From Chitinophaga pinensis (GTDB lineage: Bacteria; Bacteroidota; Bacteroidia; Flavobacteriales_D; Crocinitomicaceae): a stretch of DNA of 64,000 nucleotides. The stretch lies in contig CAMDNE010000012.1 of the NCBI GenBank assembly GCA_945902745.1, positions 33,622 to 97,621 of the forward strand, in the 5' to 3' direction. Below are positions 46,417 to 55,805 of this stretch, piece after piece. The position numbers and the translations under genes were made by a program. The first letter of the stretch is position 1. Every line of letters starts with the position of its first letter. The notes under the pieces are model-generated. The model ran no database searches. It had not been told where the DNA came from and saw only the letters and a program-made list of their open reading frames with translations.

Positions 46417-47097
46417 TTAGAGTAATTGTTTTAAAGCTTCAAATGCATTCTTGATATTATCACGAACTTCTAAAATTGAGGCTTCCATCATGTAACAAGG
46501 CGCAGTAATTATGTTATTTTCAGTGTCAATCAGTATTTCTCGAATTGTTTTCATTTCAGAACTAATTCCAATTGATTCCATTCCTTGGGAAAAAGAATTT
46601 ATGTCATACGGAGATTTTTCTTGATCGGACCCAATGGTCATTTTCGGGTGAATAGAAGAGTTTTGGAGTGCCTTTGCCACAACGATTGGACTAACACATA
46701 AAGCCACAATAGGCTTACCAACATTCACCATATTCACAATAAGCAATTTTACCTTAGCGTTTATTTCGCCTTCAGGTCCAGAAAATGCCCACTGGGTAAA
46801 ATTCTTAGCACTTCCAAAACCACCTGGAATAACCAATGCATCAATGTCTGCAGGTGAAATAGTTGAGATTTCATGAATTTTTCCTCTTGAAATTCTCGCT
46901 GCTTCAATCATCATGTTACGAGATTCAGACATTTCATCGCCTGTTATGTGATTTACAACATGGTATTGATTTTCATCAACTGAAATACAGATCGCTTCAG
47001 CTCCAATTTCCTCAATAGCTAATAACGTTAAAACAGCTTCTTGGATTTCTACGCCATCATAAACGCCACAACCTGATAACAAAACACCTATTTTCAT
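46417..47097 (-). CDS. elbB: ElbB-type glyoxalase/DJ-1 superfamily protein
   Basis: 226 residues of the DJ-1/PfpI fold. The family start MKIGVLLSGCGVYDGVEIQEAV is characteristic of ElbB, as are SESRNMMIEAARISRG, DALVIPGGFGSAKNF and VGKPIVALCVSPIVVAKAL, which holds the nucleophile-elbow cysteine. The E. coli relative was linked to isoprenoid synthesis and is annotated as a glyoxalase, but its true role is unclear. It follows the second paralogous lipoprotein by 27 bases in the same direction, so it may be part of that transcript, though no functional link is apparent. Confidence 0.88.
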   Translation of the reverse strand: MKIGVLLSGCGVYDGVEIQEAVLTLLAIEEIGAEAICISVDENQYHVVNHITGDEMSESRNMMIEAARISRGKIHEISTISPADIDALVIPGGFGSAKNFTQWAFSGPEGEINAKVKLLIVNMVNVGKPIVALCVSPIVVAKALQNSSIHPKMTIGSDQEKSPYDINSFSQGMESIGISSEMKTIREILIDTENNIITAPCYMMEASILEVRDNIKNAFEALKQLL

Positions 47098-47124
47098 AGT
47101 AAAAACAGAAAATTATTTGATTAA

Positions 47125-47580
47125 TTATTCGACTATATAAGTAATTTGATCCTTCCAGCCATCTAAAATGAAAATTGTTTTACCTCCAATTTGCTGATTC
47201 AAAGCTATTGGTTTCAAGTCAATCTCCAAAGTAAGGGATATTAAATTTTCGCAATAATCTCTATTTGAATTGTGCGATAATTGAATCTGACGGATTGGTT
47301 GTATCGCTTGATTACTGATTGGTAAACCGACGGCTTTGAATTCATGCAACATACATCCACCTGAAAAGCTAACGTCAACCAACATGTTATTCCCTTTAAT
47401 TTGGATAGCTGAAATCGTGTAAGAATCGTTTAAAGGAATTTTATCCCCCAAAATAGGGCTTATTTGAATGTTTGATTTAGATTTTTCTTGTTCTTTTGCA
47501 AGTTGCAAATCTGTTAAAATTTTATCTGTTTTACAGGAAAAAACTAATACTGATAATAAAATAAGTTGAATAATTTTCAT
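47125..47580 (-). CDS. small lipoprotein, paralogue of the next gene
   Basis: 151 residues. MKIIQLILLSVLVFSC is a lipoprotein signal with Cys16. The mature part contains MLVDVSFSGGCMLHEFKAVG, then RQIQLSHNSNRDYCENLISL and LEIDLKPIA. The GGC-x-x-H pattern and the later cysteine are shared with the gene at 47588. I do not know a function. The ATG at 47580 is used; the frame from 47607 overlaps the neighbour and would hide the signal. It lies 7 bases after that neighbour's stop, so they are one operon. Confidence 0.68.
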   Translation of the reverse strand: MKIIQLILLSVLVFSCKTDKILTDLQLAKEQEKSKSNIQISPILGDKIPLNDSYTISAIQIKGNNMLVDVSFSGGCMLHEFKAVGLPISNQAIQPIRQIQLSHNSNRDYCENLISLTLEIDLKPIALNQQIGGKTIFILDGWKDQITYIVE

Positions 47581-47587
47581 TAAATAG

Positions 47588-48025
47588 TTATTGATAAGTA
47601 TATTCAATTCGATTTTTTAAATCGTTAACTAACAGAAAGATTGTACTTCCATGTTCTTGTTTATACGCTAATTTCGAGATGTCTACAACGAGCGTTTCTT
47701 CTACGATTTTTTTACATTGATCTCCTTTTGCTGAATGAATTAATTGTACTGAGCGAATTGGAGGTAGTGATTTTGAAATCATTTCTGAACCTACAACAGA
47801 AAATGTATGTTCTTCGCATCCACCTGTATAGCTTATGTCGATAAATAAATAATTTCCTTCAACTCGAGTATTTAAGAGTGTAATTGGGTCTGAAGGAACA
47901 TTTATTTCACCAAGTGTAGCAGTGATTTTCAATCGTGAAATTTCAGGTGTTTGATTTGCGCTTTCTTTTGCTGTTTTACAACCTAATGTAAATAATGCAA
48001 TACTTAAAAGAAATAGATATTTCAT
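47588..48025 (-). CDS. small lipoprotein, paralogue of the previous gene
   Basis: 145 residues. MKYLFLLSIALFTLGC is a lipoprotein signal with Cys16. Then come LFIDISYTGGCEEHTFSVVG, RSVQLIHSAKGDQCKKIVEE and LVVDISKLAYKQ, aligned along the whole length with the 47125 product, with modest identity but the same GGC-x-x-H and second-cysteine positions. Two neighbouring duplicates with the same fold suggest a pair that work together or bind related ligands; a metal or thiol chemistry is possible from the conserved Cys and His. The ATG at 48025 is used; the open frame reaches 48172 but overlaps the rimO start. A -7 element TATCTTTG lies at 48056-48049 on the minus strand. Confidence 0.7.
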   Translation of the reverse strand: MKYLFLLSIALFTLGCKTAKESANQTPEISRLKITATLGEINVPSDPITLLNTRVEGNYLFIDISYTGGCEEHTFSVVGSEMISKSLPPIRSVQLIHSAKGDQCKKIVEETLVVDISKLAYKQEHGSTIFLLVNDLKNRIEYTYQ

Positions 48026-48109
48026 GGATAATGTTTTCAATATGCAATCAAAGATAATACCATTCAACAAATTTCGATGTAAATTATTCAGTGAAAACGG
48101 AATGAAAAT

Positions 48110-48139
48110 TTGAAACTGCTCATTCTTTCCGTAATTTTG
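48110..48139 (+). promoter_or_regulatory. consensus promoter of rimO
   Basis: TTG at 48110-48112, a 19-nt spacer and TAATTTTG at 48132-48139, a full match. The last base is five bases before the rimO ATG at 48144, so the transcript would start at or next to the start codon. Confidence 0.78.
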
Positions 48140-48143
48140 CACC

Positions 48144-49454
48144 ATGAAAACAAAAACGCTCAAAAAAAACAAGGTTAATGTAATTACGTTAGGTTGTTCT
48201 AAAAATATATACGATTCAGAAGTGATGATGGCGCAATTGAAAGCAAATCAATTTGATGTTGAACATGAATCGATGCATGATGATGCGGAAATAGTTATCA
48301 TAAATACATGTGGTTTTATTGATAATGCCAAGCAAGAATCAATTGATACCATTCTTCGTTATGCAGAAGCAAAAAACGAAGGAATGGTTGATAAATTATA
48401 CGTTACAGGTTGTCTTTCTGAACGATACAAAGATGATTTAGAAAATGAAATTCCAGAAGTTGACGCTTATTTCGGAACACGTGATTTACCTCGTTTGTTA
48501 AAAACATTGAAAGCGGATTACAAGCATGAGTTGGTAGGGGAACGTTTGTTGACTACACCAAATCACTATGCTTATTTTAAAATTGCAGAAGGCTGTGATC
48601 GGCCGTGTTCATTCTGTGCTATTCCAATTATGCGTGGTAAAAATATTTCAACTCCAATTGAAGAGTTGATAATACAAGCCAAAGGATTGGCTGCAAAAGG
48701 TGTTAAAGAGTTGATGCTTATTGCACAAGATTTGACGTATTACGGCTTAGATTTATATAAAAAACGTGCATTAGCTGATTTAATAAATCGTTTGGCTGAT
48801 GTTGAAGGAATTGAATGGATTAGACTACATTATGCTTTTCCAGCTGGATTCCCAATGGATGTTTTAGATGTGATGCAAGAGAGAAGCAATGTTTGCAATT
48901 ACTTGGATATTCCCTTACAACACGGCTCAACAAAAATTCTTCAATCAATGCGCCGTGGAATAACACGTGAAAAAACGGAAGAATTGATTGTTCAAATCAG
49001 AGAAAAAGTTCCTGGAATTGCTATTAGAACAACGTTGATAGCTGGTTATCCTGGAGAAACAGAAGAAGATTTTCAAGAAATGTATGATTTTGTTAAAAGA
49101 AGCCGTTTTGATCGTCTAGGAATTTTTACTTATTCGCATGAAGATGATACGCATGCTTTTACTTTAGAAGATGATGTTCCAGCCAAAGTTAAGAAAGAAC
49201 GTGCTGACATGATTATGGAATTACAGTCTGGTATTAGCCATGAATTAAATCAATTGAAAATAGGCAAAACCTACAAAGTATTATTTGATAGAGTAGAAGG
49301 AGACTATTTTATTGGAAGAACTGAATTTGATTCACCTGAAGTTGATAATGAAGTTTTGGTTTTAAAATCAGATGGGTTTATTCGTTTAGGTGATTTTGCA
49401 AATGTCGAAATCACGTCAGCCGATCATTATGATTTGTATGGGAAATTGGTTTGA
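48144..49454 (+). CDS. rimO: ribosomal protein S12 methylthiotransferase
   Basis: A radical-SAM enzyme that adds a methylthio group to an aspartate of ribosomal protein S12. 436 residues. The N-terminal UPF0004 domain has VNVITLGCSKNIYDSE and INTCGFIDNAKQES, with iron-sulphur cysteines. The radical-SAM cluster motif is CDRPCSFC, with cysteines at 151, 155 and 158. The TRAM domain ends the chain (EGDYFIGRTEFDSPEVD). The N-terminus MKTKTLKKNKVNVI matches the usual Bacteroidetes form, so the start codon is secure even though the promoter leaves almost no leader. A 7-nt repeat array begins five bases after the stop. Confidence 0.96.
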   Translation: MKTKTLKKNKVNVITLGCSKNIYDSEVMMAQLKANQFDVEHESMHDDAEIVIINTCGFIDNAKQESIDTILRYAEAKNEGMVDKLYVTGCLSERYKDDLENEIPEVDAYFGTRDLPRLLKTLKADYKHELVGERLLTTPNHYAYFKIAEGCDRPCSFCAIPIMRGKNISTPIEELIIQAKGLAAKGVKELMLIAQDLTYYGLDLYKKRALADLINRLADVEGIEWIRLHYAFPAGFPMDVLDVMQERSNVCNYLDIPLQHGSTKILQSMRRGITREKTEELIVQIREKVPGIAIRTTLIAGYPGETEEDFQEMYDFVKRSRFDRLGIFTYSHEDDTHAFTLEDDVPAKVKKERADMIMELQSGISHELNQLKIGKTYKVLFDRVEGDYFIGRTEFDSPEVDNEVLVLKSDGFIRLGDFANVEITSADHYDLYGKLV

Positions 49455-49458
49455 AAAA

Positions 49459-49493
49459 TTCATAATTCATAATTCATAATTCATAATTCATAA
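49459..49493. repeat. heptanucleotide tandem repeat after rimO
   Basis: TTCATAA repeated exactly five times, 5 bases after the rimO stop. It is the same unit length as the AATCCCA array at 21629. Confidence 0.95.
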
Positions 49494-49531
49494 TTTTCAA
49501 CGAGTAGGCAACCTTTTCAATTTCACTTTTG

Positions 49532-49559
49532 TATTTAGTATGAATTTAAAAACTAAATA
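49532..49559 (+). promoter_or_regulatory. hairpin just before the repeat lipoprotein start codon
   Basis: TATTTAGT (49532-49539) and ACTAAATA (49552-49559) form a perfect 8-bp stem with a 12-nt loop, ending one base before the ATG at 49561. It could hide the ribosome-binding region. An in-frame ATG at 49540 lies in the loop. Confidence 0.4.
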
Positions 49560-49560
49560 T

Positions 49561-49863
49561 ATGAAAAGAGGAACTTTAATTGGGTACGGATTAGTTTTAG
49601 CTATCGCACTCAGCATGCAGTCTTGTCAAGATGATCCGATTAATCCGAACTCTGGATGCGGCAATGGAATTGACACAACATGGGTAAATGACTCAACTGA
49701 TTTTGGAGGTGGAAATGGAAACCCAATAGATTCGACAGATTTTGGAGGTGGAAATGGCAATCCATTAGATTCAACTTATTTTGGAGGTGGTAACGGAACG
49801 CCAACCGATTCTACCGATTTTGGAGGTGGAAATGGAAATCCAGCAGATTCAATTGGTGTTTGA
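49561..49863 (+). CDS. lipoprotein with four 13-residue repeats
   Basis: 100 residues. MKRGTLIGYGLVLAIALSMQSC is a lipoprotein signal with Cys22. After QDDPINPNSGCG the protein consists of four copies of a 13-residue unit, STDFGGGNGNPxD, and ends in SIGV. The units are glycine-rich, acidic and polar, so an extended surface linker or a calcium-binding stalk is possible, but there is no recognised domain. The ATG at 49561 is preferred over 49540. It is 72 bases upstream of an ECF sigma gene and may be in the same transcript, though a separate promoter cannot be excluded. Confidence 0.65.
   Translation: MKRGTLIGYGLVLAIALSMQSCQDDPINPNSGCGNGIDTTWVNDSTDFGGGNGNPIDSTDFGGGNGNPLDSTYFGGGNGTPTDSTDFGGGNGNPADSIGV
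49693..49848 (+). repeat. four 39-bp tandem repeats inside the lipoprotein gene
   Basis: A 39-bp unit, in frame, starting TCAACTGATTTTGGAGG, is repeated four times. Copies differ mainly at third positions and in the two residues before each final Asp. Array length can change by whole units without breaking the frame. Confidence 0.93.
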
Positions 49864-49935
49864 AGTGGAAATTGAAATTCAATGAATACTATGGAATAAA
49901 ATCAAGCGTTAAGTAAAAGAAAATCAATATAAAGG

Positions 49936-50475
49936 GTGATAGCGAAGGAGGTTCTTATTGAATTTGTAAAAGGTGGTAAAAGTGCATTTGACAAAATCTA
50001 TGCAGCTTATGCACCAGGAATGTTCGGTATTTCCCTCCGCTATACACGCTGTCAGGATGATGCGCAAGATGTACTTCAAGAATCCTTCATCAAAATTTAT
50101 AATTCCCGAGAAAGATTCGATGTTAATTTACCAATCGGTGCGTGGATAAAGACCATTACAATACGAACGGCGTTGAGTTATATCAAAGAAAATTATAAAA
50201 TGACCTTGATCGATGATGAAATGAAGTTCGACCGGATGGTTTTTGAAGAAGAATCAGAGGTTGATACAAGAGAATTAAAAGAAAGGTTACTGCTGCTACT
50301 ACAAAAGTTACCAGATGGATATCGAACAGTTTTCAATTTATACACGTTAGACAATTTAACGCATAAGGAGATTGCGGAACATTTGAATATTTCTGAAGGA
50401 ACCTCTAAATCACAATATTTTAAAGCTAAAAAAATGATTCAAGTTATGCTAGAATCAGAAAGAGTTGAAAAATGA
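49936..50475 (+). CDS. ECF-family RNA polymerase sigma factor
   Basis: An alternative sigma factor of 179 residues. Region 2 is at about 20-85 (YAPGMFGISLRYTRCQDDAQ, then VLQESFIKIYN), the core-binding and -10 recognition part. Region 4 is at about 115-170, with LLLLLQKLPDGYRTVFNLYT and the helix-turn-helix LTHKEIAEHLNISEGTSKSQ. The start is a GTG at 49936 (MIAKEVLIEFVKGG). Its stop overlaps the next gene by four bases (ATGA), so both are translated together. The partner's N-terminus is the likely anti-sigma factor. Target promoters are unknown. Confidence 0.92.
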   Translation: MIAKEVLIEFVKGGKSAFDKIYAAYAPGMFGISLRYTRCQDDAQDVLQESFIKIYNSRERFDVNLPIGAWIKTITIRTALSYIKENYKMTLIDDEMKFDRMVFEEESEVDTRELKERLLLLLQKLPDGYRTVFNLYTLDNLTHKEIAEHLNISEGTSKSQYFKAKKMIQVMLESERVEK

Positions 50476-51992
50476 AAAAACAAGACGAAATAGAAGAATT
50501 ATTCTCATCGACGTTTGCCAATTTCGAGAGCATGCCACCTTTGGATGTGAAAGCGGCGATAGATGATCAATTATTCAATGGAAAAACGCCCGTTACAGGC
50601 CGTAGGAAAGGATTTATATGGATTTCTTCGTCCATCATACTAATTGGGATTGTTAGTTTCTTTGCATTGAAAAATGGGAGGAATAACAGTCCTGTTTTAG
50701 CAAAAAATGAAATCTCGGTTCAAGAAAGTTCTCCTACTTCTCCAACATCAGAAACGATAAAAAAGGAGAGTCACAAAGAGGTTTCTCCATTAAAAATCAA
50801 CAATTCACAAAAGAAAATAATCACTCAATTTGAAGAGCAGAAATTGCCGCAAGAAATTGAATTGAAGGCAAATAATTCTGCTAAAAAGTCTTCAAAAATT
50901 GAAAATGATTCTAAGTTCGCGGGAAATAATATCACTTTAAAAAAGCAAAAAATAACACGAGATAAAACGAGCCAAACAAATAACAACAGATCAAATTCAA
51001 TCAAAAATAGCCCTAACAAATCTGAATCAAAAGAAGAAAAAAATGAATTGTCTCATTCAATAAGTCAACCTGAAAAAGGTGATAATATTACTGAGAAATT
51101 TGAGATTCCAATGAACAGTGTTTTCTCAAATGAAGTAATTGTAGCTAAAAATGAAAGTATAGAAAAGTCAAATAGTTCTGTAGAGAACACATTCAACGAA
51201 AATGAAAATTCGGTCGCTGAAAATAGTGAAGTTCAAGATACAACTACTCAAGTTCAATGGTCAGAAGCAACTGAAATTAAACCTGCTTTAATGGGTTTTG
51301 ATCCATCTATAATAAGAGGTTTATCCCCTTGGTCTATTTCAATTTACTCCGGAGGAACATTTGGCTCAAGCATTTTGAAAAATTCAACTCCCGAAAATTA
51401 TAAAATGAAAGAACAACTAGGTTTTAGCACAAGTATTGAGGCGAACTATAGATTGAATACTAGATTTGGAATTTCCGCTGGAATTGACATGTATTCTAGA
51501 AAAGATGTTTTTTATAAAGTTGTCCCTGCAGGTGATAGTATAATAGATGGAGTTACAACTCAATATATTTATTTCAATCCGGTTACTCAAGATTCGATAA
51601 TAGACACGATAATTTCTCCAAATTATTTTGTGTTGCAATCAGAATACAACCAAAATCAAAGAATTCAACATAACTCTTTTGCTATACCCATTTATCTTTC
51701 AATAAATCTTTTCTTAAAAGGTAATTGGAAAATGTATTTAAATAGTGGTTTAAGAATATCTTACGTTCAAAATAAATTAGTTTCAAATCCAATTGGAATG
51801 GTAGAACCGGATTTTAAAAGTGTTGGGTTACGGGTAAACATGCGACCAGAAATCACTTATTCTCTTAAGAAATTTGGAATTGGTTGTTATCTAAATTTGG
51901 GTTATGATGCGATTCCTGCTATCCAATGGACCGATGTAAAAAGAAATCGAGTTGATTATGGTTTTGGTTTAGTTTTGAAGTATCATTTTTGA
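50472..51992 (+). CDS. putative anti-sigma protein with outer-membrane barrel
   Basis: 506 residues with an unusual layout. Residues 1-45 are cytoplasmic and charged (MKKQDEIEELFSSTFANFES). One membrane helix lies at about 46-67 (FIWISSSIILIGIVSFFALK). A polar, low-complexity segment rich in Lys, Ser, Asn and Glu runs from 70 to about 255. The rest, about 270-506, alternates strands like an outer-membrane barrel (PWSISIYSGGTFGSSILKNS, GFSTSIEANYRLNTRFGISAG, GIGCYLNLGYDAI) and ends in LKYHF, the aromatic end of barrel proteins. There is no signal peptide. Coupling to an ECF sigma gene supports an anti-sigma role for the N-terminus. No anti-sigma family motif (zinc finger, FecR) is seen, so this is inferred from position. 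Confidence 0.75.
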   Translation: MKKQDEIEELFSSTFANFESMPPLDVKAAIDDQLFNGKTPVTGRRKGFIWISSSIILIGIVSFFALKNGRNNSPVLAKNEISVQESSPTSPTSETIKKESHKEVSPLKINNSQKKIITQFEEQKLPQEIELKANNSAKKSSKIENDSKFAGNNITLKKQKITRDKTSQTNNNRSNSIKNSPNKSESKEEKNELSHSISQPEKGDNITEKFEIPMNSVFSNEVIVAKNESIEKSNSSVENTFNENENSVAENSEVQDTTTQVQWSEATEIKPALMGFDPSIIRGLSPWSISIYSGGTFGSSILKNSTPENYKMKEQLGFSTSIEANYRLNTRFGISAGIDMYSRKDVFYKVVPAGDSIIDGVTTQYIYFNPVTQDSIIDTIISPNYFVLQSEYNQNQRIQHNSFAIPIYLSINLFLKGNWKMYLNSGLRISYVQNKLVSNPIGMVEPDFKSVGLRVNMRPEITYSLKKFGIGCYLNLGYDAIPAIQWTDVKRNRVDYGFGLVLKYHF

Positions 51993-52894
51993 CCTTCTAT
52001 GTTTCTCGGATGAAAAGTAATAATTGCATCTCTCAAGAATCGTTGATCTAAATGCGTATAAATTTCTGTTGTCGTGATTGATTCGTGTCCTAGCATTTCT
52101 TGTATGGCTCTTAAATTGGCGCCTCCTTCAATAAGATGTGTTGCAAATGAATGTCTAAATGTATGCGGAGATATTGATTTTTTCAAACCAATCGCTTCAG
52201 CTAAATCTTTGATTATTGTAAAAATCATTACACGTGTCAATTGTGCTCCACGTCGATTTAAAAAAACAATGTTTTCATTACCAGGTTTGATGTTTTGATG
52301 TCTACGAATATGATCATTGTAAATTCCTATTTCCTTTTCAACGGTCTTGCTTACTGGAACCAATCGTTCCTTGTTACCTTTTCCGATTACTCGGATAAAT
52401 CCTTCTTCAAAGTAGATTTCTGAGAACCTCAAATTCACTAATTCGCTAACCCTTAATCCACAGCTGTAAAGCGTTTCGATGATTGCTTTGTTCCTATGGC
52501 CTTCATTTTTGGACATGTCAACTGCAGCAATTAATTGATCTATTTCTTCAATCGTCAATACTTCTGGCAATTTGCGACCGATTCGCGGCATTTCAAGTAA
52601 CTCACTTGGATCATCATTTAGAATATCTTCAACTAACAAGAAGCCAAAAAATTGTTTGATTCCACTTATGATTCTAGCTTGTGAGCGCGCACTTAATCCT
52701 AAGTCGTATAATTCAGTGATAAATAGTTTTAAATGTTCGTATGTCAGTTCTGTTGGACTAAGTTTTTGACTCAATGCAAAGTCATGTAATTTGGCCACAT
52801 CATTTTGATACGCAAAAATAGAATTGGCAGCTAATCCTTTCTCTATTTTTAAAAACGAAACAAAATCCTTAATATAGCGTTCCCAAGTTGACAT
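51983..52894 (-). CDS. xerD: tyrosine recombinase XerD
   Basis: Resolves chromosome dimers at the dif site during cell division. 303 residues. The N-terminal SAM-like domain is at about 1-90 and the catalytic domain at about 110-295. All catalytic residues are seen: Arg148 in SCGLRVSEL, Lys172 in GKGNKERLVP, His244 and Arg247 in SPHTFRHSFATH, His270 in MLGHES and Tyr279 in TTTEIYTH. Length and pattern fit a housekeeping Xer protein, not a phage integrase. The ATG at 52894 is used; the longer frame adds 25 residues that the family lacks. Its 3' end overlaps the barrel protein gene by 10 bases, and its start lies 4 bases from the divergent aroQ start. Confidence 0.93.
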   Translation of the reverse strand: MSTWERYIKDFVSFLKIEKGLAANSIFAYQNDVAKLHDFALSQKLSPTELTYEHLKLFITELYDLGLSARSQARIISGIKQFFGFLLVEDILNDDPSELLEMPRIGRKLPEVLTIEEIDQLIAAVDMSKNEGHRNKAIIETLYSCGLRVSELVNLRFSEIYFEEGFIRVIGKGNKERLVPVSKTVEKEIGIYNDHIRRHQNIKPGNENIVFLNRRGAQLTRVMIFTIIKDLAEAIGLKKSISPHTFRHSFATHLIEGGANLRAIQEMLGHESITTTEIYTHLDQRFLRDAIITFHPRNIEGQK

Positions 52895-52898
52895 GAAT

Positions 52899-53315
52899 AT
52901 GAAAATTTTAATCGTTAATGGTCCCAATTTAAATTTACTTGGGACGCGTGAGCCACAAATATATGGCAATCAATCTTTCGAAGACTATTTTAATGCGTTG
53001 AAAATGGAAAGTAATGTTGATTTAACCTATTTTCAATCGAATATTGAAGGAGAATTGATCAATTGTTTGCAAGAAGCAGATCACGATGGAATTATTTTAA
53101 ATGCCGGCGGATATACGCATACAAGCGTAGCTTTGAGAGACTGTGTTGCTTCAATAAAGGTTCCTGTTGTGGAGGTGCATATTTCAAATATTACAAAGCG
53201 TGAAGAATTTCGCCATACTTCTTTAATATCTCCTGTTGCAGTAGGGTGTATTTTTGGATTTGGATTGAAAAGCTATGAATTAGCGATTCACTTTTTTGAA
53301 ATAAATAAGCGTTGA
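52899..53315 (+). CDS. aroQ: type II 3-dehydroquinate dehydratase
   Basis: Converts 3-dehydroquinate to 3-dehydroshikimate in the shikimate pathway to aromatic amino acids. 138 residues, a dodecamer subunit. Family motifs: NGPNLNLLGTREPQIYG (active-site Tyr and Arg), FQSNIEGELINCL, ILNAGGYTHTSVALRD and EVHISNITKREEFRHTSLIS, which holds the catalytic histidine. ATG at 52899 gives the usual MKILIVNGPN start; another in-frame ATG at 52893 adds two residues and overlaps the xerD start codon. The two divergent genes share almost no promoter space. The 3' end overlaps the glycosyltransferase by 28 bases. Confidence 0.94.
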   Translation: MKILIVNGPNLNLLGTREPQIYGNQSFEDYFNALKMESNVDLTYFQSNIEGELINCLQEADHDGIILNAGGYTHTSVALRDCVASIKVPVVEVHISNITKREEFRHTSLISPVAVGCIFGFGLKSYELAIHFFEINKR

Positions 53316-54319
53316 TTCAATTCTTTGAATTTCGTTACCCCTTTAAAATATCGTGCCCATAAAATACTTCCACGGTAAATACCATTTGAATTGAATATTG
53401 TGGATTGTAGTTTGATTTCTTTGCGCTGACTTAATAGAATTGGGAGGTGTTTATACATAGCAACATGCGCATTTAAAACGCTCGCTAGATGTTTCCAATC
53501 GCCTCGTAGAAAGAATCGAATTCCAGCTATGCCATCTAAATTTAAACGGTGAATAAGTTTAAAGAAAAGTATTCCTTCATGGTTTTTTACAATCATGAAT
53601 AAACTGTTTCTAAAATTCAAATACGATTTGCGCGGAGAAAGATAGGGCAGTGTTCCACCACCAACATGATAAATGGTTGATTGCGGATTCACAACAAATT
53701 TATATCCTCGTTTTTTCAATCTCCAACACAAGTCAATTTCTTCCATGTGCGCAAAAAAAGCTTCATCAAATCCTCCTGCCAAGTGAAAAAGTTCGGACCG
53801 AATTAACAAGGATGCTCCTGTGGCCCAAAAAACTTCAATTTCGTTATCGTATTGACCCTTGTCATTTTCAAATTTATCAAAAATTCGACCTCTACAAAAA
53901 GGGAAATAATTCCGGTCTAAAAAGCCTCCAGACGCACCAGCATGTTCGAAAAGGGATTTGTCATGGAACGATAATACTTTTGGTTGACAACCTGCAATAG
54001 TTGGGTCTTCCATCGTTTTTAATAGTGGCTCCAACCAATTTTCAGTCACCTCAATATCACTGTTTAAAAGCAAGTATAACTTAGCATCCACTTGTTTTAA
54101 TGCATCGTTATATCCTTTTGCAAAACCACCATTGGATTCGTTGATAATGATTGCTATTGACGGATAATTGTCTCTAATAAATTGAACAGAATCATCGGTG
54201 GAGGCATTATCGGCAACAATAATTTTCGCACCATTTGAAAACGCACAAACTGAAGGTAAGAATTGCTCTAAAAAATTTCTTCCGTTCCAGTTTAAAATTA
54301 CAATTGCTAAAGAATCCAC
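53288..54319 (-). CDS. family 2 glycosyltransferase
   Basis: 343 residues, cytoplasmic side of the inner membrane. The GT2 fold starts at the N-terminus: LAIVILNWNGRNFLEQFL and ADNASTDDSVQFI bind the sugar nucleotide; LYLLLNSDIEV holds the DxD-like metal site; GGFDEAFFAHMEEIDLCWRL is the acceptor-side signature. A C-terminal tail of about 100 residues has a hydrophobic region but no clear helix pair. It resembles rhamnosyl- or mannosyl-type transferases for surface polysaccharide. It follows the GWxTD gene by 34 bases in the same direction, and its stop overlaps the aroQ end. No other polysaccharide genes are near. Confidence 0.88.
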   Translation of the reverse strand: MDSLAIVILNWNGRNFLEQFLPSVCAFSNGAKIIVADNASTDDSVQFIRDNYPSIAIIINESNGGFAKGYNDALKQVDAKLYLLLNSDIEVTENWLEPLLKTMEDPTIAGCQPKVLSFHDKSLFEHAGASGGFLDRNYFPFCRGRIFDKFENDKGQYDNEIEVFWATGASLLIRSELFHLAGGFDEAFFAHMEEIDLCWRLKKRGYKFVVNPQSTIYHVGGGTLPYLSPRKSYLNFRNSLFMIVKNHEGILFFKLIHRLNLDGIAGIRFFLRGDWKHLASVLNAHVAMYKHLPILLSQRKEIKLQSTIFNSNGIYRGSILWARYFKGVTKFKELNQRLFISKK

Positions 54320-54353
54320 AAATAACCTATGTTTTTTTGTCCAATATTAGTTA

Positions 54354-55805
54354 TTAATATTGACGAAACAAATCATTTCCATTTGTACCATAGTGTTTTT
54401 GGACATCAGCATTTGGGTCATCAATATTGCCATTTGTGGTGTTTCTCTTCACAAGTATTTGTGGCCAAGCTGGATTTTTCAATTCACCAATCATATCTGA
54501 ATGCAACAACCTGTATCCATTATTTACTAAATCTGGGTTGTAAAAAATGAATCGTTTATTACTGAAAGAACCAATTTTATTGTACTGCCAAATTTCATAA
54601 GGATATTCATTTGATGAGGTTTCCTTTTGAACAATAGTAGTTGGTGAACCGTATTGTAAATAAACTCTACCACGATCTGTCTCGAATCCTTCTTGAAAAT
54701 TATTAGCGTATAATTCCTCAACCAATTGCACTTGTGCTTTGTATTTTAACCAGGCTTCAGTAGTGTTTGTTGGCGCTGTCATCAACCAAAAGGCTTGAAT
54801 GTGTTTGCGTTGTGCCGCCAAATCTTTAGATTTTAAAGTAGAAATAATATTTTTCACTTCTACCGCTTTAGAAATAGGGATAAAACTTTCTAAATAAAAT
54901 GCTACGCTGTCATCAGTTATTGATTCTTGAAAAATTGGATCTAATACCAATGTTGCTAAATCCCATTCCACTTCAATGTCATTACTTCGCTGAAACAAGT
55001 ATGTTTGAGTTGTAAGTTCAACCATACTTCTTGACAAAAGGGTGAAGTTAATTGCATAATTTCCAGTCGCCAATTTTGCAATGTCAATATTTCTAATAAT
55101 GGGCACTACAACTGGTGTTTCATGCTTCGTATAAAGCGTGAATTCTGGCAATTCCTTTCCTGTATCTGTATTTACTATAGTTTGTTTTAAACCGCAAACA
55201 GAATCTTCTAATATATTCATGTTGTAAAATTCAAAATAAACAGGAATGGATGATAATTGTGCAGGATAGAAAGTAGGAAGTCTTGGGATTATTTTATAAC
55301 CAGATTTATAAAAAATGGAAGTTTCATCTCCTGGAGACGCATATTCTATTATTTCTATATCTGAAATCGAAATCGTTTTAGATAAATCTTCAATAATAAT
55401 TGTTTGTGAAGCTTTTGAAGACGCATTTGTTGCACTTAAATCTTGCATTTCAAAACTCATCATGTAGCGTCCTGGAGCTAAAACGTAACGTTTTAAATCG
55501 TAAAAATCATCAATGATACTATCTCTCATTAGTGACGATTGCAAGCGATAAACATCATTTATAATTGTAGAATCGCCGTTAGATATTTGGATGGATATAG
55601 CCAATTCAGCTTGTAATCCACCTTCAACAGGCTTGTATTTTAAGGAGTGTCCAACAAATTGAAAGTATATTTCAATATAATTACCTGTTTCTGGAGCATA
55701 AAATTGTTTGTTATCTATATACGCTCGCAGATTAGAATCTTGCGAAAAACAAAGATTACTTGAAAACAAACTAAGAGAAATTACAATAAAACTGACTATT
55801 CGCAT
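54354..55805 (-). CDS. GWxTD-domain exported protein
   Basis: 483 residues. The signal peptide is about 1-22 (LSLFSSNLCFSQ). The N-terminal 300 residues form several beta domains of unknown role. The GWxTD domain lies at about 340-450, with ANNFQEGFETDRGRVYLQYG, in which the family W is replaced by F (GFETD), then PYEIWQYNKIGSFSNKRFIFY and LVNNGYRLLHSDMIGELKNP. The domain is common in Bacteroidetes and other phyla; its function is unknown. It precedes the glycosyltransferase gene by 34 bases, probably in one transcript. Confidence 0.85.
   Translation of the reverse strand: MRIVSFIVISLSLFSSNLCFSQDSNLRAYIDNKQFYAPETGNYIEIYFQFVGHSLKYKPVEGGLQAELAISIQISNGDSTIINDVYRLQSSLMRDSIIDDFYDLKRYVLAPGRYMMSFEMQDLSATNASSKASQTIIIEDLSKTISISDIEIIEYASPGDETSIFYKSGYKIIPRLPTFYPAQLSSIPVYFEFYNMNILEDSVCGLKQTIVNTDTGKELPEFTLYTKHETPVVVPIIRNIDIAKLATGNYAINFTLLSRSMVELTTQTYLFQRSNDIEVEWDLATLVLDPIFQESITDDSVAFYLESFIPISKAVEVKNIISTLKSKDLAAQRKHIQAFWLMTAPTNTTEAWLKYKAQVQLVEELYANNFQEGFETDRGRVYLQYGSPTTIVQKETSSNEYPYEIWQYNKIGSFSNKRFIFYNPDLVNNGYRLLHSDMIGELKNPAWPQILVKRNTTNGNIDDPNADVQKHYGTNGNDLFRQY

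Follow-up and report, generated by a model that had tools for sequence, protein, structure and literature searches.

The window, that is the whole 64,000-nucleotide stretch of DNA analysed here, contains a gene for an ECF sigma factor followed immediately by a gene whose product is predicted to span both membranes of the cell envelope. The two open reading frames, 49936-50475 and 50472-51992, both lie on the forward strand and share four bases (ATGA). An earlier sequence-only reading had given the same coordinates and overlap, which the ORF list and the sequence bear out, and its proposal that the second gene is coupled to the sigma factor stands on the basis of gene order. A gene for a small predicted lipoprotein and a promoter-like element precede the pair, and the features of the locus are as follows.

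49507..49533, forward strand: promoter-like element GGCAACC-N16-TGTA, a putative promoter whose end is 27 nt upstream of the likely start of the lipoprotein
49561..49863, forward strand: small predicted lipoprotein with GGGNGNP repeats (the mechanically called ORF starts at 49540)
49936..50475, forward strand: ECF sigma factor of 179 aa with a GTG start (Pfam Sigma70_r2 and Sigma70_r4_2; TIGR02937)
50472..50609, forward strand: residues 1-46 of the second protein, predicted cytoplasmic head of two helices (model helices 3-14 and 24-35), putatively sigma-binding
50610..50681, forward strand: residues 47-70, predicted inner-membrane helix (hydropathy peak 48-66; model helix 47-70)
50682..51329, forward strand: residues 71-286, polar, predicted disordered periplasmic tether (low pLDDT, poor conservation)
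51330..51986, forward strand: residues 287-505, predicted OmpA-like outer-membrane barrel (PF13568, model, PDB matches)

The product of the first gene of the pair matches the Pfam families Sigma70_r2 (6e-13) and Sigma70_r4_2 (2.9e-16) and the NCBIfam model TIGR02937 (91.2 bits, cut-off 42.9). Its GTG start is supported by the GTG or TTG found at the aligned position in the related loci L004, L005, L006 and L008. Downstream, the 3' end of a convergent ORF, by eye a tyrosine recombinase of the XerC/D-like kind, overlaps the end of the putative anti-sigma gene (window positions 51983-51992).

The second protein matches an outer-membrane barrel family in Pfam, OMP_b-brl_2 (PF13568; 29.1 bits, cut-off 27, residues 286-482). 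In an AlphaFold model built on a 19-row alignment, the strands across residues 287-505 are mostly modelled at pLDDT 72-95, with a hairpin at about 351-390 reaching about 60, and by our own reading of the element list of the model the barrel would have eight strands. The best PDB matches of the model in a Foldseek search are OmpA barrels (9fzc, 1.2e-7; 9fzd, 1.9e-7). The pLDDT is below 50 at 37-48 and 70-282, and about 26-42 across 71-280. The two-membrane architecture proposed by the sequence-only reading thus persists as a prediction (PF13568, model, Foldseek), with some redrawing of its parts. The linker is polar and predicted to be disordered as proposed, and by our delimiting it measures about 216 residues rather than 185. 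The C-terminal barrel is confidently modelled and OmpA-like, and starts at 287 rather than 260; the soluble C-terminal fold that had been named beforehand as refuting the proposal is not what AlphaFold and Foldseek show, both pointing to a barrel instead.

In FecA-FecR-FecI surface signalling, a surface signal reaches the ECF sigma factor via a separate receptor and FecR, whereas no FecR model is among the Pfam and NCBIfam matches of the window proteins at E up to 1. Neither is an anti-sigma domain found in the head of the second protein among its Pfam and NCBIfam matches. The 46 residues of the head are weakly modelled, at pLDDT about 43-64, with two helices; the class II anti-sigma domain of CnrY is described as short and as consisting of two helices wrapping the sigma factor (PMC7406223).

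Related proteins were collected with a narrow profile, A1, and a broad one, A3, the latter being a 28-row alignment of sigma-adjacent partners that includes the window protein. At E 1e-3, A1 matches 31 of the 395 genomes of the class, the genome of the window among them, and at E 1e-5 A3 matches 325 of the 395, an upper bound for the gene pair, as matches to the barrel alone or to the head alone are counted. Three loci matched by A1 (L029, L034, L035) were dropped from the family, as they have no nearby sigma gene and show other architectures. Altogether 163 loci, mostly fetched by family-profile match, yielded 156 sigma ORFs and 132 non-redundant pairs: 89 with a barrel (E 1e-3), 36 with a type IX secretion system (T9SS) sorting domain (E 1e-4) and 7 others, counts that differ from frequencies in nature because the loci were selected by profile match. 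The seven include two loci that fall short of these thresholds, L099 (barrel, E 0.023) and L101 (sorting domain, E 2e-4). Since 89 non-redundant sigma and barrel pairs were recovered, the pairing is not ascribed to chance; the partner starts within 30 nt of the sigma stop in 87 of them. PF13568 matches 15 of the 28 A3 rows at E 0.01 and PF13505 matches 9, so that the barrel call in distant members rests on our own profile.

When the window protein is compared with ten distant homologs, identity is 46-72% in the head, 29-53% in the barrel and 9-17% in the linker. Across the 89 barrel pairs, the distance from the end of the helix to the start of the barrel profile is 145-270 residues (5-95% range; median 196), and polar residues make up 72% of the linker, which is almost free of cysteine; by these sequence comparisons, tethers differ about two-fold in length and do not retain their sequence. 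A strong helix precedes the linker in 88 of the 89 barrel types, which were defined by selection, and the C-terminal residue is F, Y or W in 61 of them. The N-side of the helix is more positive than the far side in 85 of the 89 barrel types and 28 of the 36 T9SS types, a flanking charge pattern that supports an N-terminus inside the cell.

The sequence-only reading mentioned similar barrel proteins beside sigma genes in Bacteroidetes and no settled mechanism for them. The latter statement is out of date, as the Dma/Reo class has been published with genetic evidence that a sigma factor is set free once its anti-sigma factor is lost (PMC13088901, PMC9308784, PMC13114119). Proteins of the Dma family are reported to comprise an N-terminal sigma-binding domain, a membrane helix, a long disordered tether and a C-terminal barrel, and to be encoded next to an ECF21 sigma gene (PMC13088901). 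In the same account, the order das2-dma2-BT_1557 corresponds to sigma, Dma and DUF4943, and Dma3 is a single polypeptide comprising both sigma factor and barrel (PMC13088901). Reo of Phocaeicola is described as reaching from the cytoplasm to the surface (PMC9308784, PMC13114119). There, the regulon is switched on when the anti-sigma factor is lost, and the sigma transcript goes up 33-fold in response to the toxin BcpT (PMC9308784); the regulon includes lipoproteins of the NigD family, and Reo has been proposed by the authors as a sensor of outer-membrane stress (PMC13114119).

Kinship with these proteins was checked by searching with A3 a genus (g41 of family f34) that we take to be Bacteroides or close to it. 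The profile matches 20 of its 21 genomes, and a sigma ORF is present at 29 of 30 loci, some of which overlap one place and two of which are fusions; the loci lie outside the 132 pairs. At L170, L181 and L184, the order is sigma, Dma-like protein and DUF4943, as published for das2-dma2-BT_1557, and the two parts match independently, at 9.9e-8 to 4.5e-10 for the head and helix profile and at 1.3e-9 to 2e-14 for the barrel profile. The sigma-barrel fusions are found at L166 and L186, as reported for Dma3. These two were considered as stand-ins for the docking of the sigma factor to the head and were dropped, as they seem by eye to be devoid of a head. In six sampled genomes of f34, the type IX sorting-domain profile gives 0-2 matches per genome.

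By profile homology of head and barrel, together with architecture, the window protein belongs with Dma, a likeness that is drawn from the published description and from the profile matches in g41. It resembles Dma1 and Dma2, which accompany Das1 and Das2 in Bacteroides thetaiotaomicron, in the head, the one membrane helix, the long disordered tether, the barrel and the adjacent ECF sigma gene (PMC13088901). The window locus differs from them in that its sigma gene is preceded by the repeat lipoprotein gene and its host belongs to Flavobacteriales, and from the Dma2 locus in that the pair is followed by the convergent gene and not by DUF4943. With EcfO-Reo of Phocaeicola vulgatus and Bacteroides fragilis it would have in common an anti-sigma factor with an outer-membrane barrel and an association with lipoproteins, those of the NigD family in the regulon there (PMC9308784, PMC13114119); stress induction and the regulon have been demonstrated for EcfO-Reo, whereas for the window they are only extrapolated. 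Dma3 is alike in that its barrel and its sigma factor are connected across the envelope (PMC13088901), but in the Dma3-like L166 and L186 the sigma factor appears by eye to run straight into the membrane helix, with no room for two head helices, in contrast to the two genes and the head of the window.

The upstream part of the locus has counterparts among relatives. The product of 49561..49863 has a signal-peptide-like start ending in SMQSC (by eye), and comparable genes lie ahead of the sigma gene in L002, L004, L005 and L233, L003 having only a fragment of one. The element GGCAACC-N16-TGTA, or a one-base variant of it, precedes the operon in L002-L006. A search pattern drawn from L001-L006 matches in 31 of 100 genomes of the family, with no genome-wide excess of the element (39 matches among those listed, against 52 for the reversed pattern). 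At five of the 30 matched loci returned, a sigma gene of this type lies within 1.5 kb downstream (the window, L221, L224, L233 and L240); the element of L221 is the same as that of L004, and L224, L233 and L240 had not been used to define the pattern. In the genome of the window, no regulon was found via the element, the stricter pattern giving a single match and the looser one three matches against two for the control. The lipoprotein gene and the element ahead of the pair in relatives suggest an autoregulated operon. Separately, L004 and L005 have the element twice: ahead of the lipoprotein gene there is also a copy in divergent orientation, on the other strand, and no ORF of 60 codons starts within 300 bases behind that copy.

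Taken together, the window contains an ECF sigma gene overlapped by a gene of the Dma/Reo type, whose product is predicted to span both membranes and would probably act as an anti-sigma factor. The sequence shows how the genes are ordered, to which family they belong and that the upstream element is conserved; the membrane architecture is predicted, and we infer the anti-sigma activity, the signal, the release step and the promoter use as follows. The two-helix head would clamp the sigma factor at the inner membrane, and the membrane helix and the disordered tether would cross to the outer membrane, where the C-terminal barrel would be anchored. Were the outer membrane or the assembly of the barrel disturbed, the chain would be disrupted, probably through proteolysis, which is a guess, and the sigma factor would be set free and in turn transcribe its own operon, the small lipoprotein included, from GGCAACC-N16-TGTA. 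Repression by the head, with release upon such a disturbance, is the best-supported reading; its genetic precedent comes from Bacteroides and Phocaeicola.

Other readings differ from this one in what the barrel does or in whether the two ends stay joined. The barrel might be a receptor for a ligand, for example a surface glycan, with release upon binding rather than upon damage. The authors of the Dma2 study propose an unknown glycan as the signal (PMC13088901), and the model of the window protein places a long hairpin (357-368, 375-386) between strands of the barrel. That hairpin, however, is modelled at pLDDT about 60, inspection by eye of the 12 ORFs of 80 aa or more at 47000-55500 shows no polysaccharide-utilisation gene, and Reo is reported to be induced by two antibacterial toxins and by long exposure to oxygen (PMC9308784, PMC13114119). 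We regard ligand sensing as rather unlikely here. It is less probable still, and in our judgement quite unlikely, that the whole chain is normally processed so that the anti-sigma factor stays in the inner membrane and the barrel becomes a protein of its own, with nothing spanning both membranes at rest. The linker, predicted to be disordered over about 213 residues and poorly conserved, would tolerate a cut, but its length range in the family and the strong helix in 88 of 89 members fit, without proving, a joined chain.

That the second protein is no anti-sigma factor at all and the pairing of the genes is incidental could be argued from the head, which matches no anti-sigma domain of Pfam or NCBIfam. 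We regard this as highly improbable: a sigma ORF is present in 152 of the 163 loci, although these were mostly fetched by profiles of the partner and not of the sigma factor, few parts of the protein are as well conserved as the head, and the published members repress their sigma factor according to the genetic evidence reported for them.

The search with A1 also returned four loci (L019, L026, L027 and L031) at which the same kind of head and helix belongs to a protein that ends in a T9SS type B sorting domain, with TIGR04131 above its cut-off in all four, only just so in L026; a fifth suspected case, L017, has no TIGR04131 match. A profile of the four, A2, was run against the 395 genomes of the class and gave full-length matches (rows starting by position 5 and ending at 351 or later) in at least 34 genomes, with a sigma match at 29 of the 30 loci returned. 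In 35 of the 36 non-redundant T9SS-ended pairs, the partner lies within 30 nt of the sigma stop. TIGR04131 matches at E 1e-4 or better all 34 partners of alignment A5, from which L046 and L053 were left out. A head and helix profile derived from A3, which contains no T9SS-ended protein, matches 35 of the 36 partners at E below 1e-3, and the heads of the barrel and T9SS types are therefore considered related. As a control, no sigma gene was found in the upstream stretch of 20 other sorting-domain proteins, which were hand-picked from the listed rows, with ORF starts reckoned from lengths, places at contig ends skipped and most proteins larger than the variant; an earlier control, also 0 of 20, was weak, as in 10 cases the ORF extended as far as the region did and in 3 more there were fewer than 160 bases upstream.

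The genome of the window encodes SprA, the T9SS translocon (2431 bits), and a T9SS-ended pair, at L102 (997-1842, reverse strand), where a sigma gene is followed by a 282-aa partner with a match to PF13585 (2.4e-15). In the model of this partner, two head helices (7-15, 24-34) and a further helix (52-67) are followed by a stretch of low confidence and then by a confidently modelled C-terminal fold; its PDB matches include the T9SS proteins PorZ (3.7e-4) and PorU (4.6e-3), below several streptococcal peptidases. Two further pairs were observed in this genome. At L101 (1498-2757, forward strand), a 420-aa partner with a head and a helix follows the sigma gene; it has one PKD match just under the cut-off and a weak sorting-domain match to our own profile only, with none in Pfam. 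At L099 (1489-2766, forward strand), a sigma gene and a possible barrel gene are paired on the strength of the weak own-profile match, with none in Pfam. Elsewhere, at L049, L051, L054 and L056, the T9SS-ended pair lies beside another sigma gene with a short partner of 236-257 aa, which has a hydrophobic helix and no match to the barrel or sorting-domain profiles.

In a quick tree of 148 sigma rows, in which 14 of the g41 loci and the two fusions were included, the sigma genes of the barrel and T9SS kinds fall largely in two branches. Frequent swapping of the two ends was tested on it and is unsupported, as the T9SS end needs 2 changes against a shuffled mean of 32.5.

The barrel may be one of two outer ends on a common sigma-clamp module, and we tentatively suggest, as a possibility somewhat short of an even chance, that in a second and widespread branch the T9SS-ended proteins, as anti-sigma factors, would report whether their C-terminus can be taken up by the type IX machine and so act as one-chain secretion gauges. 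What is sensed in this branch, in parallel to the disturbance proposed for the barrel, would be that uptake; because its inner-membrane helix would hold it back, such a chain could presumably not be let go as a normal substrate is, which would make it a natural gauge. Our searches of an open-access collection of papers gave no account of a sigma-adjacent T9SS-ended variant. Links between the T9SS and ECF sigma factors have been reported. In Flavobacterium psychrophilum, an ECF sigma/anti-sigma pair has a promoter motif in common with T9SS genes (PMC9723704), and in the PorA/PorXY-SigP system of Porphyromonas gingivalis a surface protein with a T9SS domain feeds an ECF sigma pathway (PMC7712824), which is similar to what the T9SS-ended variant might do. 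PorA, however, is described as a separate protein acting via a two-component system, whereas the T9SS-ended variant is one chain encoded beside its sigma gene.

The design of the class is known from gut Bacteroides, and the window locus is a member of it from Flavobacteriales; what is added beyond the published class is the upstream lipoprotein gene with its element, the pattern of tether lengths and the T9SS-ended variant, which we consider a more interesting lead than the window locus itself. Short heads of this kind may also help to explain, in a link of our own, why, in a survey from which domains under 50 residues had been removed, only 6% of the ECF sigma factors of Bacteroidetes had a class I anti-sigma domain next to them (PMC7406223). 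The window locus places regulators of the Dma/Reo type in Flavobacteriales with a testable operon layout. For P. gingivalis, the authors of the PorA study state that PorA at the surface should be connected with PorY of the inner membrane through further factors (PMC7712824); the T9SS-ended branch, if it works as proposed here, would be a one-protein answer to the problem of reporting the surface end of type IX secretion to transcription.
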